This document shows, piece after piece, positions 9,516 to 46,197 of a DNA stretch of 57,950 nt. Position numbers and translations under genes: made by a program. The DNA lies in the NCBI GenBank assembly GCA_003161435.1, contig PMOS01000009.1, positions 40,078-98,027 on the forward strand, in the 5' to 3' direction. Numbering within the stretch: position 1 is the first letter of the stretch; each line of letters begins with the position of its first letter. Source of the DNA: Vulcanimicrobiota bacterium. GTDB taxonomy: Bacteria > Vulcanimicrobiota > Vulcanimicrobiia > Vulcanimicrobiales > Vulcanimicrobiaceae. Under the pieces are notes generated by a model. That model saw nothing but the letters and a program-made list of their open reading frames with translations. It had not been told where the DNA came from and ran no database searches.

Positions 9516-11076
9516 CGTTCCCGAGGCCGCGCTGCTTTCGGTCTACGATCGCACCGGTGTCGTCGAGTTGGCGCGCGCGCTCGCCGAGCGCGGTGTTCCG
9601 CTGTATGCAACCGGTGGAACGCGCGCGCATCTGCACGAGCACGGCGTCGACGCCGAGGATGTCGGGGAGCTCACCGGCTACCCTTCGCTGTTCGACGGGC
9701 GCGTCAAGACGCTCCACCCCAACGTCTTCGGCGGGATCTTGCAGGACCGCGATGACCCGGTGCACCGCGGCGAGGCCGCGCAGCATCACATCCCGACGAT
9801 CTCGACCGTCGTCGTGAACCTCTACCCGTTCGAGTCGACGGTCGCGCGCGAGGGCGCGACGCTGCAGGAGGCGATCGAGCAGATCGACGTCGGCGGCGTC
9901 GCGCTGCTGCGCGCGGCGGCCAAGAACTTCGAACACGTCAGCGTGCTCAGCGATCCGTCGCAGTACGGATCGTTCATCGCCGCGCTGCCGAGCGGCGGGC
10001 TCGATCGTGCGACGCGGCGCGGCTACGCGACGCGCGCGTTCGAGCGCACCGCGGAATACGACAGCGCGATCGCGCGCTACCTCGAGTCGGGTCTGCTGAC
10101 GCACGAGTTGCCGGGCTCGCTGGCGCTGACGATCCCGATCGAGCAGCCGCTGCGCTACGGCGAGAACCCGCAAGACCGGGCGGCGTTCTATCTTGCCCGC
10201 GAAGCACAGCTCCCCGATCAGCTCGGCGGGAAGGCGCTGTCGTACAACAACCTCCTCGACCTCGATGCGACGCTGCGCGTGCTCGTCCGCGCACGGCTCG
10301 GCGCCGACGTGCCGGCGTTGCCGGCCGAGCATTTGACGCGCGCCGCGATCGTGAAGCACACGGTGCCGTGCGGCGTCGCGGAGCGCGACTCGGTGGCCGG
10401 CGCCGTGCGCGCCGCGCTCGACGCCGATCCGGTTTCGGCGTACGGCGGGATCATCGCGGTCGACGGGAAGGTCGATGCGGCGGCGGCCGAGCACCTTGCG
10501 GGCTTCTTTCTCGAGATCGTGGCGGCGCCGGCCTTCAGCGACGACGCGCTGGCGCGCTTGCGCAAGAAGAAGAACTTGCGCATCATGCGCTTTCGGGCCG
10601 GCATGCCCGAGCGAATCGCAGCCGAGCTGCGCGTGCGCAGCGCGCTGGGCGGCGTCCTCGCCGAGGACGACGATCCCGACGCGCCCGCCGAGCGCTGGAC
10701 GGTCGTATCGAAGCGGCAGCCGACGGCGGGCGAGTGGCGCGATCTCGTCTTCGCTTGGGACGTCGTGCGGCACGTAAAATCGAACGGCGTGGTGATCGTC
10801 CGCGACGCCGTTTCGCGCGGCATTTGCGCGGGGCAGACGAACCGCGTGAGCGCGGTGCAGATCGCGGCGCATCGCGCGCACGACTTCGCGCACGGCGCGG
10901 CCGCCGCGAGCGACGGCTTCTTCCCGTTCGCCGACGGGCTGATCGCCGCCGCGGAAGCCGGCTGCACGGCCGTCATCGCGCCGCAGGGCTCGATCCGCGA
11001 CGCCGAGGTGATCGCGGCCGCCGACGAGCGCGACATCACGCTCGTGTTCTCGACCTACCGCTACTTCTTACACTGA
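9490..11076 (+). CDS. purH: Bifunctional AICAR formyltransferase / IMP cyclohydrolase
   Basis: Catalyses the last two steps of de novo IMP synthesis. The N-terminal cyclohydrolase (MGS-like) domain shows LLSVYDRTG and GRVKTLHP. The transformylase domain shows RYGENPQD, the catalytic KH pair in KHTVPCG near residue 289, GQTNRVSAVQIA and ASDGFFPFADG. Many homologues have NPCG where this protein has VPCG. The 528-residue length fits the family. GTG 9490 overlaps smc by 26 bases; GTG 9508 is an equally good start. Confidence 0.95.
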   Translation: MNPPSPVPDVPEAALLSVYDRTGVVELARALAERGVPLYATGGTRAHLHEHGVDAEDVGELTGYPSLFDGRVKTLHPNVFGGILQDRDDPVHRGEAAQHHIPTISTVVVNLYPFESTVAREGATLQEAIEQIDVGGVALLRAAAKNFEHVSVLSDPSQYGSFIAALPSGGLDRATRRGYATRAFERTAEYDSAIARYLESGLLTHELPGSLALTIPIEQPLRYGENPQDRAAFYLAREAQLPDQLGGKALSYNNLLDLDATLRVLVRARLGADVPALPAEHLTRAAIVKHTVPCGVAERDSVAGAVRAALDADPVSAYGGIIAVDGKVDAAAAEHLAGFFLEIVAAPAFSDDALARLRKKKNLRIMRFRAGMPERIAAELRVRSALGGVLAEDDDPDAPAERWTVVSKRQPTAGEWRDLVFAWDVVRHVKSNGVVIVRDAVSRGICAGQTNRVSAVQIAAHRAHDFAHGAAAASDGFFPFADGLIAAAEAGCTAVIAPQGSIRDAEVIAAADERDITLVFSTYRYFLH

Positions 11077-40383: not shown

Positions 40384-40638
40384 ATGGACCGCCAGACGCT
40401 CGCCAACGTCGTGCCGCTCGCCGCGGTCGTGATCGCGTTGGCCGAGTACCTGCTCGACCACACCTATCCGCGCTACGCAAGCCCGTGGTTCTGGATCGCG
40501 CTGGTCGCGACGATCAGTCTGCTCGTGCTGGTGCAGGTTCTACGCTTTACCGGGGCGTCCAAGCCGAGCGCGGCGAAACCCGATTATTCCGCAGCGTCGG
40601 TGATCCGCCGGCGCTCTGACTCCGATGACAAAGGTTGA
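40384..40638 (+). CDS. Small two-segment membrane protein
   Basis: An 84-residue protein with two membrane segments (LANVVPLAAVVIALAEYLL and FWIALVATISLLVLVQVL) and a charged tail ending VIRRRSDSDDKG. A second, diverged copy of its last 96 bases occurs just before glyA, after the MntA/HepT genes. Function unknown. Confidence 0.7.
   Translation: MDRQTLANVVPLAAVVIALAEYLLDHTYPRYASPWFWIALVATISLLVLVQVLRFTGASKPSAAKPDYSAASVIRRRSDSDDKG
40543..40638 (+). repeat. Left copy of direct repeat flanking the MntA/HepT module
   Basis: The 3' end of the small membrane protein gene. Its last 48 bases match 41501-41548 at 43 positions, and the match extends more weakly to the left. Confidence 0.8.
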
Positions 40639-40685
40639 CGAAGGCCGGCGTCGCGCCGGAGCACTACTCGAAGGGAGTACCGCAC

Positions 40686-41009
40686 GTGCCTGAACCACAG
40701 CCTGAAACGGCGCCGGATCGGCATGCACTGATAGCGCTGCTTCGAGCGGAGCGTCGTGTTCTCGAACGTTCAGGTGTGCGGCGCGCGGCACTCTTCGGTT
40801 CTACGGCGCGTGGTGATGCGAATGCCGCTTCGGACGTCGACATCCTCGTCGTCCTCGATCCGGCAGCGCACGTTGGTCTTATCCGCTTTGCCGCCCTGCA
40901 AGAGCATCTCCGGCGGTTACTAGGGCGCGACGTGGACCTCATTAGTCGCGGCGCTCTACGAGCAGACCGCGACGGGGCCATCCTCGACGAGGCAATCTGG
41001 GCGTTCTGA
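40686..41009 (+). CDS. mntA: MntA-like minimal nucleotidyltransferase antitoxin
   Basis: A 107-residue nucleotidyltransferase-fold protein with the GSx10DxD motif complete (Gly38, Ser39, Asp50, Asp52) and a third acidic site in GRDVDLIS. In the MntA/HepT toxin-antitoxin systems MntA inactivates HepT by adding AMP. GTG 40686 has AAGGGAG about nine bases upstream; a TTG at 40635 overlapping the previous gene is less likely. The hepT-like gene starts two bases after its stop. Confidence 0.85.
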   Translation: MPEPQPETAPDRHALIALLRAERRVLERSGVRRAALFGSTARGDANAASDVDILVVLDPAAHVGLIRFAALQEHLRRLLGRDVDLISRGALRADRDGAILDEAIWAF

Positions 41010-41011
41010 GC

Positions 41012-41383
41012 GTGGCTGACACGGCAAAGATTCGGAAACGAGCTCGTCTCGAAGACATCGTCGAGCACACGCAAGCGGCATGCGATGCGCTCGCTTCGAT
41101 ATCTCAAGGTGAATTCATGAGCGACGCGATCGTGCAGAAAGCAATTTGCTTCGATCTCCTTTGCATCTCCGAGGCGACGGCACGGCTTCTCGACCTCGAC
41201 CCGGGTATCGCGCAACGCTATGGCGACGTGCCTTGGCCTCAAGTGCGCGCCATTGCGAACGTGCTTCGCCATGAGTACCACCGGATCGATATGGACATTG
41301 TGTGGGACACGGTAAAGGCGGGCGACCTGGATAGCCTGATGGCTGCAGCCACGCGTGAGTTGGAGCTCTTGAGTTCGATCTGA
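41012..41383 (+). CDS. hepT: HepT-like HEPN-domain toxin
   Basis: A 123-residue all-helical HEPN (DUF86) protein, the partner of MntA. HEPN RNases use an Rx4-6H motif. Here the region is [13 protein letters not shown], with His87 and Tyr89 conserved but Ala82 where the motif arginine usually is; Arg79 and Arg86 are nearby. It belongs to the NVLRHEY subgroup, so catalysis by the standard motif is not certain. Confidence 0.83.
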
Positions 41384-41555: not shown

Positions 41556-42803
41556 ATGCAAGTGCTCGAACCCCAAACGCTCGCTGCGGCGGATCCCGAG
41601 ATCTTCGCCGCGATCAGCAACGAAGAGCGGCGCCAGCGCGACAACCTCGAGCTGATCGCGTCGGAGAATTACGCCAGCCGCGAGGTGCGTGAAGCCAACG
41701 CGTCGGTCATGACGAACAAGTACGCCGAAGGTTATCCCGGCAAACGGTATTACGGCGGCTGCGAGTACGTCGACGTCGCAGAGACGTTGGCGATCGAGCG
41801 GCTGCGCAAGCTGTTCGGCGCCGAGCACGCAAACGTTCAGCCGCATGCGGGCGCGCAGGCGAACATGGCCGTGCTGATGGCGGTCCTGCAGCCGGGCGAC
41901 ACCCTCTTGGGGATGTCGCTGGCGCACGGCGGTCACCTCACCCACGGCACCAAGGTTTCGTTCAGCGGAAAGCTCTACAACGCCGTCGCCTACGGCGTGC
42001 GCAAAGAGGACGAGCTGATCGACTTCGATCAGGTGCGCGCGCTCGCCCGCGAGCACAAGCCCAAGCTGATCATCGCCGGCGCGAGCGCGTATCCGCGTAC
42101 GATGGAGTACGCGCCGTTCCGCGAGATCGCGAACGAGATCGGCGCGACGTTCCTGGTCGACATGGCGCACATCGCGGGGCTCGTCGCGACCGGCCTGCAC
42201 CCGTCGCCGGTCCCGCTCGCCGACTTCGTGACGTCGACCACCCACAAGACGCTGCGCGGCCCGCGCGGCGGGCTCATCCTGACGACCGCTGCCTACGCGC
42301 AGGCGATCGACAAGAGCGTGTTTCCCGGGATCCAAGGCGGACCGTTCATGCACACGATCGCCGCCAAGGCGGTCGCCTTCGCCGAAGCGCTCGAGCCCTC
42401 GTTCACGACGTACCAGCAGCAGGTGATCGTCAACGCTCGCGCGATGGGTGACGAACTGCAGCGCGCCGGCGCGCGTTTGGTCGGGGGCGGTACCGACACG
42501 CACTTGCTGCTGGTCGATCTCACGCCCAAGGGACTGACGGGGAAGGCCGTCGAGGCATACCTCGACGAGATCCGCATCACCGTGAACAAGAACGCGATCC
42601 CGTTCGATCCGCAGAAACCCGCCGTGACGAGCGGTATCCGCATCGGCTCGCCGGCGATCACCTCGCGGGGATTCGACGAGGCCGACGCGCGCGAGGTCGG
42701 CCGAATCATCGGCGAAGCCCTCGGCGATGTCGGCACCGAGGCGAAGAAGGCGACGCTCCTCGCCCGCGTCGCCGAGTTGACCTCACGCCACGACGTCCCA
42801 TAG
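41556..42803 (+). CDS. glyA: Serine hydroxymethyltransferase
   Basis: PLP enzyme interconverting serine and glycine with tetrahydrofolate, the main one-carbon source. 415 residues. Conserved: [37 protein letters not shown], and the PLP lysine Lys231 in [12 protein letters not shown]. Confidence 0.97.
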
Positions 42804-42899: not shown

Positions 42900-43706
42900 T
42901 CAACCTGGGGGTTCGGAGGGTAATTGAGGTTCGGCCTCGTCCATTTCAGTAGACGGCGTCAGCAAGCGCCATCGCGTGCGAACATCGTTACGGTCGGTTT
43001 CAGCAGGCTGCACGATGGCAACGGTGGGTAGTCCTGCGACGTCGATGTTGCATCCACGCCAGCCGGCGCGACGTGCCGTCGTGGAAAGCGGTCGGCGCGG
43101 GATGATTCGCTCTTCGCCAATCATCGCACCAGGTAACGCGTCGGCATAGACGATCATCGACCGGCGCGTGTCGAACTCGGTGAGAATGTATTCGGGCATA
43201 AGTCCTGCCCTGACCGCATATAGCGTGGCGTCGTAGGCGGCACCGATTAAGAGGCCTCCAAAGCGCCCATCCTTTGCTTTCAACTGGTATCTCGTACTAC
43301 ATTCCGGACAGCGGAAGTCCGCGACCGGCGTATTGGGCGGCAGGCGTTCCAAGCCGTCCCAGGAGCAGCGCAAACAATAGAGGTTCATTTCCGCCCACGT
43401 TTCGATCAATACGCGCGCCACTTGAGCCCGGTTCGTGTACCCGTCCGCCAGTGTAGGATCGAAAAAGGCGCTGAAGACAGGTAGATTGTCGAGGCGCTCA
43501 TAGCGACCGGCTCCTAGGAAGCGCAGGACGCCTTGGTTTCGCAATACCTGAAGGCTCTGCCGAATTTTGGCTTCGACGAAGCGATTCGCTGGATATTCGG
43601 CCCGAAACTCATCCGCATGCTGAAGGATGTTCGCCAGGCTGAAGAGTCGCGGCTGCCGCCCGACGACCTCTTCTACTAGAGACTTCCAGGTGCGTCGGGA
43701 ACCCAC
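42900..43706 (-). CDS. DpnI-like methyl-directed restriction endonuclease with N-terminal winged helix
   Basis: A 268-residue protein clearly related to DpnI, which cuts adenine-methylated GATC. Nuclease part (about 105-235): zinc cysteines 111, 114, 133 and 136, Asp130 in PVADF, Gln141-Lys143 in RYQLKAK (DpnI has Glu at the first position), and RRPLSTTARRAGWRGCNID. The winged-helix part (about 15-72, with EAKIRQSLQVLRNQGVLRFL) comes first, whereas in DpnI it is last. No methyltransferase is adjacent, as expected for this class. GTG start. Base composition is lower in GC than glyA, suggesting transfer. Confidence 0.88.
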   Translation of the reverse strand: MGSRRTWKSLVEEVVGRQPRLFSLANILQHADEFRAEYPANRFVEAKIRQSLQVLRNQGVLRFLGAGRYERLDNLPVFSAFFDPTLADGYTNRAQVARVLIETWAEMNLYCLRCSWDGLERLPPNTPVADFRCPECSTRYQLKAKDGRFGGLLIGAAYDATLYAVRAGLMPEYILTEFDTRRSMIVYADALPGAMIGEERIIPRRPLSTTARRAGWRGCNIDVAGLPTVAIVQPAETDRNDVRTRWRLLTPSTEMDEAEPQLPSEPPG

Positions 43707-44389: not shown

Positions 44390-44938
44390 GTGGCGGAAAC
44401 ATCGCCGCAGCTGTGGACGGCGCGCCTAATGCTGCGGGAGCCCAATGACGACGACGCGGCGGCGCTGCTCGCATATCACATGCGCAATGAGCCGCGCTTT
44501 TCGCTGTGGGAGCCGAAGCGCGGTACCGACGTCGCGCAGCATTTGCAGTGGATCCAATGGCGCCGCGCGGAAGGCGAAGCGGGCCGCGCGCGCACCTTCT
44601 TGGGGTTCGATCGCGCAGATTCGGCGGGGCTCGTCGGGTCGTTCAACCTCGACAGCGTCACGCGGTACCCCGAGTCGAGCGCGATGCTGAGCTACTCGGT
44701 CGACGGCGCATATGAAGGGCAAGGCTACGCACGCGAAGCGGTGGCGGCGCTGGTCGCTCACGCGTTCGATGAACTCGCCCTGGGCAGCCTGAGCGCCACA
44801 TACGACCCCGCCAACGCCCGCAGCGGTGGCTTACTGGCGCGCTTGGGTTTCCGGATCGTCGCGCAGACGCCCGTCATCCCGGGGATGGAGCGGATCATGC
44901 GCGCGCAAGTGCTCGCGATGCTCGAACGTCCCGCGTGA
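44390..44938 (+). CDS. GNAT acetyltransferase, RimJ/RimL-like
   Basis: A 182-residue acetyltransferase of the type that modifies ribosomal protein N termini. LWTARLMLREPNDDDAAALL at the start and the acetyl-CoA loop YEGQGYAREAVAAL near residue 110. GTG start 9 bases after the DUF1801 stop. Paralogue of the next gene and of the pseudogene upstream. Confidence 0.87.
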   Translation: MAETSPQLWTARLMLREPNDDDAAALLAYHMRNEPRFSLWEPKRGTDVAQHLQWIQWRRAEGEAGRARTFLGFDRADSAGLVGSFNLDSVTRYPESSAMLSYSVDGAYEGQGYAREAVAALVAHAFDELALGSLSATYDPANARSGGLLARLGFRIVAQTPVIPGMERIMRAQVLAMLERPA

Positions 44939-45495
44939 GCGAGGAGATCACCACCGAGCGTCTGATCCTGCGCGAGCCGCGCGACGAAGACGCGCCGGCG
45001 CTGCTCGCGTATTACGTTCGCAACGAGGAGCGTTTCGCGCGCTGGGAACCTGAACGCGTCGACGATCTCGAGCACCATCTTCGTTGGATCGCGTGGCGCC
45101 GCGATGAAAGCGGCGCCGGGCGCGGCCGTTCGTTTCTGGCGTTCGACCGGGCGAACGACCACGCGCTGGTGGCGATCGTCAACCTCTACCAGATCGTCCG
45201 AGGTGCGAGCCAGAGCGCGGTCCTGGGTTATTCGGCCGACGGCGCCTACGAGGGGCGAGGCTACGCGAGCGAAGCGGTCCAGGCGGTCGTGAAGCATGCC
45301 TTCGACGCGCTACAACTGCATCGTATCACCGCGAACTACCAGCCGGCGAACGATCGGAGCGCGGCGCTCTTGCGGCGCTTGGGTTTCGTCGTCGAAGGCT
45401 ACGCGCGCGACATGCTGTACATGCGAGGCACGTTCCGCGACCACGTGCTGACGTCGCTCGCGAACCCCGCCTGGCAGCCGCCGCCGGCGCCGTAG
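44935..45495 (+). CDS. GNAT acetyltransferase, RimJ/RimL-like
   Basis: A 186-residue paralogue: TTERLILREPRDEDAPALL, YEGRGYASEAVQAV, and the typical end ALLRRLGFVVEGYARDMLYM. GTG start in a GTGA overlap with the previous gene. Substrate unknown. Confidence 0.88.
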   Translation: MSEEITTERLILREPRDEDAPALLAYYVRNEERFARWEPERVDDLEHHLRWIAWRRDESGAGRGRSFLAFDRANDHALVAIVNLYQIVRGASQSAVLGYSADGAYEGRGYASEAVQAVVKHAFDALQLHRITANYQPANDRSAALLRRLGFVVEGYARDMLYMRGTFRDHVLTSLANPAWQPPPAP

Positions 45496-45540: not shown

Positions 45541-46197
45541 GTGCACCAGCCGCTGATCGTCGACCATCCTGCCGTTCAAGACCGCCTTGCGCGCCTGCGC
45601 GACGCGACCACCACGACGCCGGTCTTCCGGCGCCTGGTCGAAGAGCTCGGCCAACTGCTGGCGTACGAAGCGACGCGCGCGCTGCCGCTGACCGAGATCG
45701 AGCTCCAGACGCCGGTTGCACTGGCGAAGGTCCAGCGCATCGCGACCCGCCCCGTCGTGGCGCCGATCTTGCGCGCGGGACTGGGCCTGCTGCCGGGTTT
45801 CCTCGCCGTCGTCGACGACGCGGTGGTCGCGCACCTGGGTTTCTACCGCGACCCCAAGACGCTCGCCGCTGTGCCGTACTACGCGAACCTGCCTGACGAT
45901 CTCGCCGAGCGCGACGTGTTCGTGCTCGACCCGATGCTTGCCACCGGCCACTCCGGCTCGGCGGCGCTCACGACATTGGCCGAGCGCGGCGCGAAGGCAC
46001 CGACGTTCGTGTGCATCATTGCGGCACCCGAGGGAATCGCGACGCTCGCGCGCGAGCACCCCGGCGTCCGGATCGTGACCGCCGCGGTCGACGAACGCCT
46101 CAACGACCACGGCTACATCGTCCCCGGCCTCGGCGACGCCGGCGATCGCATGTTCGGCTCGACCAGCTCCGTCCCGGTGAGCGCTCGGACGCAGTAG
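45541..46197 (+). CDS. upp: Uracil phosphoribosyltransferase
   Basis: Pyrimidine salvage: uracil plus PRPP gives UMP. 218 residues. Conserved ILRAGLGLLPGF, the PRPP loop LDPMLATGHSGSAAL (many homologues have GGS where this has GHS) and the uracil-site YIVPGLGDAGDR. GTG start. Confidence 0.95.
   Translation: MHQPLIVDHPAVQDRLARLRDATTTTPVFRRLVEELGQLLAYEATRALPLTEIELQTPVALAKVQRIATRPVVAPILRAGLGLLPGFLAVVDDAVVAHLGFYRDPKTLAAVPYYANLPDDLAERDVFVLDPMLATGHSGSAALTTLAERGAKAPTFVCIIAAPEGIATLAREHPGVRIVTAAVDERLNDHGYIVPGLGDAGDRMFGSTSSVPVSARTQ

Follow-up and report, generated by a model that had tools for sequence, protein, structure and literature searches.

Reversed order of the two DpnI domains in a predicted methyl-dependent nuclease of the Vulcanimicrobiaceae

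Results

The window analysed here is a stretch of 57,950 nucleotides from a Vulcanimicrobiota bacterium of the family Vulcanimicrobiaceae (assembly GCA_003161435.1, contig PMOS01000009.1, positions 40,078 to 98,027). On its minus strand lies a gene with a GTG start (42900..43706) that encodes a protein of 268 amino acids with about 30% identity to DpnI; close relatives begin at about the same place in the alignment. The first part of the protein is a winged helix (residues 1-72, 43491..43706, minus strand), matched over residues 3-70 by the Pfam family DpnI_C (PF17726, E 1.6e-16, 60.7 bits compared to a cut-off of 23). A short inter-domain linker (residues 73-77, 43476..43490, minus strand) leads into a complete DpnI catalytic domain (PF06044, residues 78-253, 42948..43475, minus strand), likewise above the Pfam cut-off. 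AF2 predicts both domains with high confidence within one chain and gives the winged helix the elements H7-16, E21-23, H24-28, H31-37, H44-57, E61-65 and E68-71, while residues 78-253 are matched structurally to DpnI 1-179. VIA-align, which re-examines only what Foldseek had matched, recovered the winged helix in residues 1-75 of the model. Folded on its own and alignment-free, the winged helix gave a poor model (mean pLDDT 69.8). The preliminary description, made from the sequence, had proposed a DpnI-type core with four zinc cysteines and a winged helix moved to the N terminus, and Pfam, alignment and structure comparison bear out this reversed order. PADLOC assigns the protein to mREase_II (E 6.8e-41, best over the catalytic domain), hence it is a variant of an already recognised kind.

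Residue numbers and roles follow DpnI as described in parts of PMC4117772, where Ser17, Gln18, Asn48, Arg126, Leu129, Arg135, Trp138 and Gly140, together with Lys229 and Arg231 of the winged helix, contact Gm6ATC or its methyl groups. The window protein keeps the catalytic residues Asp53 and Lys66 (its Asp130 and Lys143) as well as Gln18, Asn48, Arg126, Leu129, Arg135, Trp138 and Gly140, the last five within a methyl-reading loop from Arg204 to Gly218 (43053..43097, minus strand). Lys229 and Arg231 are retained as Lys47 and Arg49 in the helix 44-57 (43536..43577, minus strand), and four zinc-type cysteines are found at residues 111, 114, 133 and 136 (43299..43376, minus strand). The protein departs from DpnI at Glu64, which is Gln141 in the active site Asp130-Gln141-Lys143 (43278..43319, minus strand), and at Ser17, which is Ala94. 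Among the 120 close relatives listed, Asp53, Lys66, the five loop residues, the four cysteines and Arg231 are found in every protein; Gln18 and Lys229 are present in 117 each and Asn48 in 114. The position of Glu64 is occupied by Gln in 120/120 of them and that of Ser17 by Ala (92), Ser (21) or Thr (7). Because the Gm6ATC-reading residues of DpnI are almost all kept, in the window protein with the exception of Ser17 and nearly so across these 120 relatives, the earlier suggestion of a different recognition site finds no support. The other suggestion, a different preference for site spacing, may still hold. That the protein is a methyl-dependent nuclease, as was also suggested, is likely and predicted from the same kept domains and residues.

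Domain order was scored with our own domain profiles in the products of three protein searches, with the window protein (497 matches, 120 listed), the Neisseria Drg protein (1735 matches, 120 listed) and a divergent copy from genome G113 (118 matches, all listed) as queries. The winged helix stands first in 208 of the 359 proteins and last in 142, nine being not scorable for both domains; these counts are not family-wide frequencies, since similarity searches supplied the sets and only a minority of the matches of the first and second search was listed. Set by set, the winged helix comes first in 121/121 proteins of the first (window protein counted twice), 0/120 of the second and 87/118 of the third, and the catalytic domain in 0, 119 and 23, respectively, which leaves one protein of the second and eight of the third set not scorable. 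The few reversed relatives that bear names among the matches listed are from Eremiobacteraeota, Vulcanimicrobiaceae, Cybelea and Velthaea, and the latter two we take to belong to the Eremiobacterota. A scan of the genome collection with peptides of the window protein gave three loci, all in Eremiobacterota. Within the phylum of the window, PF06044 is encoded in 18 of 148 genomes, with the winged helix first in 18/18 (one copy frameshifted); 17 of these carriers belong to the window's own family and one to another family of the class. About 200 relatives share the reversed build.

In trees of the single domains, one branch splits the reversed from the canonical rows and one order change is needed, with SH-aLRT values for this branch of 99 (catalytic domain) and 90 (winged helix). 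These are quick trees without a fixed root, built from a sample of 60 rows (26 reversed, 34 canonical) with few columns for the winged helix, and either order may be the older one. The open-licence literature searched gave no description of a winged helix followed by a DpnI-type core, nor is one listed in the sections of PMC11037411 covered. The reversed order is common in the sampled relatives of one phylum, but no characterised member was found in the literature searched.

The distance between the two domains is uniform. Of 207 reversed proteins, 193 show both the KIRQ motif in the winged helix and Gln18 in the catalytic domain, and in 187 of these the two anchors lie 48 residues apart, so that the linker is length-locked in the clade. 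On the canonical side, the Cys141 position is separated from the winged-helix motif by 85-89 residues with little variation (119 measured of 142). All 120 Neisseria-like relatives listed from the second search have Glu at the Glu64 position, and their Trp138 position is held by Tyr (60), Trp (52), His (7) or Leu (1). Gln at the Glu64 position as a hallmark of the reversed order is weakened by the third set, in which 3 of 23 canonical homologues share it. In a midpoint-drawn tree these three proteins branch first on the canonical side, and Gln as the older state would fit this early branching. A motif scan did not find D-x10-[EQ]-x-K in 9/87 reversed and 1/23 canonical proteins of the third set or in 1/119 canonical proteins of the second, and some of these proteins are fragments. 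The clade is marked by two features, Gln in place of Glu64 and the locked spacing between winged helix and catalytic domain.

The G113 query revealed a clade of about 85 relatives. In the reversed G113 copy itself (L021:1249-2954), the fourth zinc cysteine is replaced by Ala, and the gene overlaps a downstream ORF for an HNH endonuclease, a neighbour seen in G113 only. Relatives of the window protein were found neither in phage records nor in two viral-contig scans with limited word sets, and the plasmid collection returned two Neisseria records only, so that a mobile or viral origin was not retained, although viral copies may exist. Drg as query gave three partial matches in phage records, to its C-terminal winged-helix part. 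NZ_CP119142.1 (L024), a Neisseria gonorrhoeae record of 2.17 Mb, is filed as a plasmid, and its size suggests a chromosome.

No D12-class (Dam-type) methylase was found in the window's own genome, which is 83% complete, and none by Pfam among the seven neighbouring genes tested; the genome gave only a weak, sub-cut-off match to an N6_N4 methylase in a long ORF with a DPPF motif (L023:679-3363, minus strand). Across the family, D12-class methylases above the cut-off occur in 4/17 carriers of the gene versus 13/82 non-carriers (hand count, Fisher p 0.48), and an avoidance of Dam-type methylases by carriers was thus not found. In two of the four D12-bearing carriers the methylase lies within a complete DpnII system (L055:3269-6357 and 9665-10435; L056:6040-9355 with L057). 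These systems, in genomes G016 and G055 of the same family, comprise a Dam-family methylase (DpnM-like), a second methylase (DpnA-like) and the DpnII endonuclease, and each genome also has an intact-looking copy of the reversed protein (wH-DpnI) that does not deviate at any of the 67 columns in which the clade is conserved to 95% or more. In G016 the gene and the DpnII system are about 3.3 kb apart on one contig. DpnII is restricted to carriers among the 99 family genomes (2/17 versus 0/82, p 0.028). Genome G030 combines a Dam-family methylase with a copy split by a frameshift (L058), which could be a real loss or a sequencing error, and in G069 the copy is more divergent and accompanied by a D12 methylase that falls slightly short of the Dam-family cut-off. 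The window contains 648 GATC sites (observed/expected 1.02), and no avoidance of GATC was seen in the stretches examined, G008 being left out.

The nuclease gene faces glyA, its convergent neighbour (41556..42803, plus strand; Pfam SHMT, E 4.7e-162), which marks a recurrent position, and the other border of the variable interval is formed by the uracil phosphoribosyltransferase gene upp (45541..46197, plus strand; Pfam UPRTase, E 1.8e-64). With a threshold of E 1e-100, we found glyA in 89 of the 99 family genomes and read the stretch behind it in 84, two with almost no contig left; five with glyA at the contig end were omitted. In 7/17 family carriers, from five genera (the window's own genome, G036, G123, G132, G091, G064 and G090), wH-DpnI is the gene immediately behind glyA and points towards it. 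In 15 other genomes upp follows within 50 bp of glyA, and further genomes have unrelated-looking genes there. Genome G059 shares its genus with G064 and G090, which have wH-DpnI at this position, but its place directly behind glyA is taken by an AlwI-type R-M system (L100:5366-9020) made up of the endonuclease (PF09491, E 1.5e-93) and a double D12 methylase. AlwI recognises GGATC, hence the G059 system would protect by the methyl mark that a DpnI-type enzyme would cut. A dedicated defence slot between glyA and upp is not supported: in 24 loci, with ORFs filtered by third-position GC and judged by eye, the contents look metabolic or envelope-related except in G059. A single insertion at glyA followed by vertical descent is likewise unsupported, as the gene tree does not unite the glyA-adjoining copies in one clade. 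It does unite those of the window's genus, even though two of these sit about 11-12 kb upstream of glyA.

Discussion

Sequence and structural model agree that both DpnI domains are present in reversed order, along with the PD-QXK residues, the zinc-type cysteines and the Gm6ATC-reading residues. The protein is probably a stand-alone m6A-dependent endonuclease that has kept the site of DpnI and re-tethered its second reader. Incoming DNA with N6-methyladenine in GATC would be cut by wH-DpnI acting alone. By analogy to DpnI, the catalytic domain would read and cut Gm6ATC, and the winged helix would read a second methylated ApT site and thereby raise activity or specificity. The geometry of the two sites is likely unlike that of DpnI, because the winged helix is now attached, by a short linker of fixed length, to that end of the catalytic domain which in DpnI touches the minor groove through its first helix. 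The host would be expected to survive, since no Dam-type methylase was found in its incompletely recovered genome. FcyTI, a DpnI relative of the usual order, cuts within Gm6ATC and reduces transformation more than 1,000-fold (Dam+ host; parts of PMC11037411).

R.DpnI from Streptococcus pneumoniae (type IIM/IIE; PDB 4esj, 4kyw) has the same two domains, the Asp and Lys, the zinc-type cysteines and nearly all Gm6ATC readers, but its catalytic domain comes first and it has Glu64 and Ser17 where the window protein has Gln and Ala. The dam-replacing gene product Drg/NmeBII of Neisseria is likewise a DpnI-family protein encoded at a recurrent position (leuS/dam), with a reported Gm6ATC specificity (PMC4269198, in part); it also has the catalytic domain first and, in the copy compared, Glu at position 64 and His at the Trp138 position. 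FcyTI and Psp4BI are described in parts of PMC11037411 as m6A-dependent, stand-alone DpnI relatives, as is predicted here for the window protein, but by the name of their class, PD-(D/E)XK-wH, they have the DpnI order. The other architectures given in the covered sections of that paper are PUA-wH-HNH, wH-HNH, wH-GIY-YIG, PLD-wH, NTPase fusions and wH-Mrr-NTPase. A winged helix N-terminal to the nuclease is thus also found in wH-GIY-YIG, wH-HNH and wH-Mrr-NTPase, however, their nuclease domains are unrelated to the DpnI-type core. According to the same sections, new fusions other than PD-(D/E)XK-wH cut near but outside their site, whereas the DpnI-type core carries its own site specificity. The features of the DpnI family (PF06044 plus PF17726) are all present in the window protein, namely both domains, the zinc-type cysteines and the Leu129/Arg135/Trp138 loop. 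Because of the reversed order we do not file it under the PD-(D/E)XK-wH architecture of DpnI, FcyTI, Psp4BI and Drg, whose acidic second catalytic residue (Glu64) is absent and replaced by Gln141.

Since GATC is not avoided, methylation together with an active enzyme is expected to be lethal, and DpnII and wH-DpnI in one cell would be so if the methylases work and the nuclease acts as DpnI. Their coexistence in G016 and G055 speaks against the preferred reading, as do D12-class methylases that are no rarer in carriers, Gln for Glu64 and Ala for Ser17. It could be explained by mixed strains, which are possible because the genomes are mostly many-contig assemblies, by a silent gene or by a gated enzyme. 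Gating would mean that the reversed joint has changed cutting, such that cleavage depends on a further signal, be it the spacing of sites, a different methylated context or the state of foreign DNA, and methylated host GATC is tolerated. The complete DpnII systems together with intact-looking copies in G016 and G055, with DpnII seen in carriers only among 99 genomes, and the locked linker point in this direction. However, nearly all base and methyl contacts of DpnI are kept, the co-occurrence concerns two genomes, and a Dam-type methylase was not found in the window's own genome. A DpnI-type nuclease whose winged helix, moved to the front, makes cutting conditional on two-site geometry or on another signal and so lets it share a cell with a working DpnII system is rather unlikely in our view; if true, both halves of the pneumococcal either/or pair, DpnI and DpnII, could coexist.

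Coexistence with methylases would also be understandable if the enzyme were silent, and Gln in 120/120 close relatives listed may be taken to mean that the catalytic Glu was lost and that the protein serves to read methylation or to regulate, with no useful cutting. We hold this to be improbable, as Asp and Lys are invariant in the same 120 relatives, Gln also occurs in 3/23 canonical homologues, and a PD-QXK nuclease domain of the Mrr type is among the modification-linked fusions in the covered parts of PMC11037411. An artefact, whether an ORF arising by chance, an assembly chimera or two genes fused by a frameshift, has next to no probability: there is the frameshifted copy in G030, but the same order recurs in 208/359 proteins, the spacing is fixed in 187/193 and both domains are confidently predicted in one chain, and on the grounds of conserved order and spacing this explanation is rejected. 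Thus, the stand-alone m6A-dependent endonuclease with DpnI's site is the reading that we prefer.

DpnI is a model for a double reading of adenine methylation, once per domain. A clade in which nature has swapped the domains while keeping the contacts and locking the linker length lets one ask, as in a ready-made experiment, if a particular reader geometry is needed. Likewise, genomes with wH-DpnI and DpnII make the exclusion rule between a methyl-cutter and a methyl-protector testable in a natural setting.

The exchange behind glyA in G059, which is one case, recalls by analogy the choice in pneumococcus, which has either DpnI or DpnII (PMC3573125, in part), and the drg/dam locus of Neisseria, a recurrent site of a DpnI-family gene (PMC4269198, in part). 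Two adjacent genes for GNAT acetyltransferases (Acetyltransf_3; 44390-45495 of the window, plus strand) adjoin the nuclease gene, and GNAT genes like these are also found behind glyA in several genomes of the window's genus. On the far side of glyA, a nucleotidyltransferase and a HepT-like gene (40635-41383, plus strand) form a pair that, by Pfam, resembles an MNT/HepT toxin-antitoxin module.
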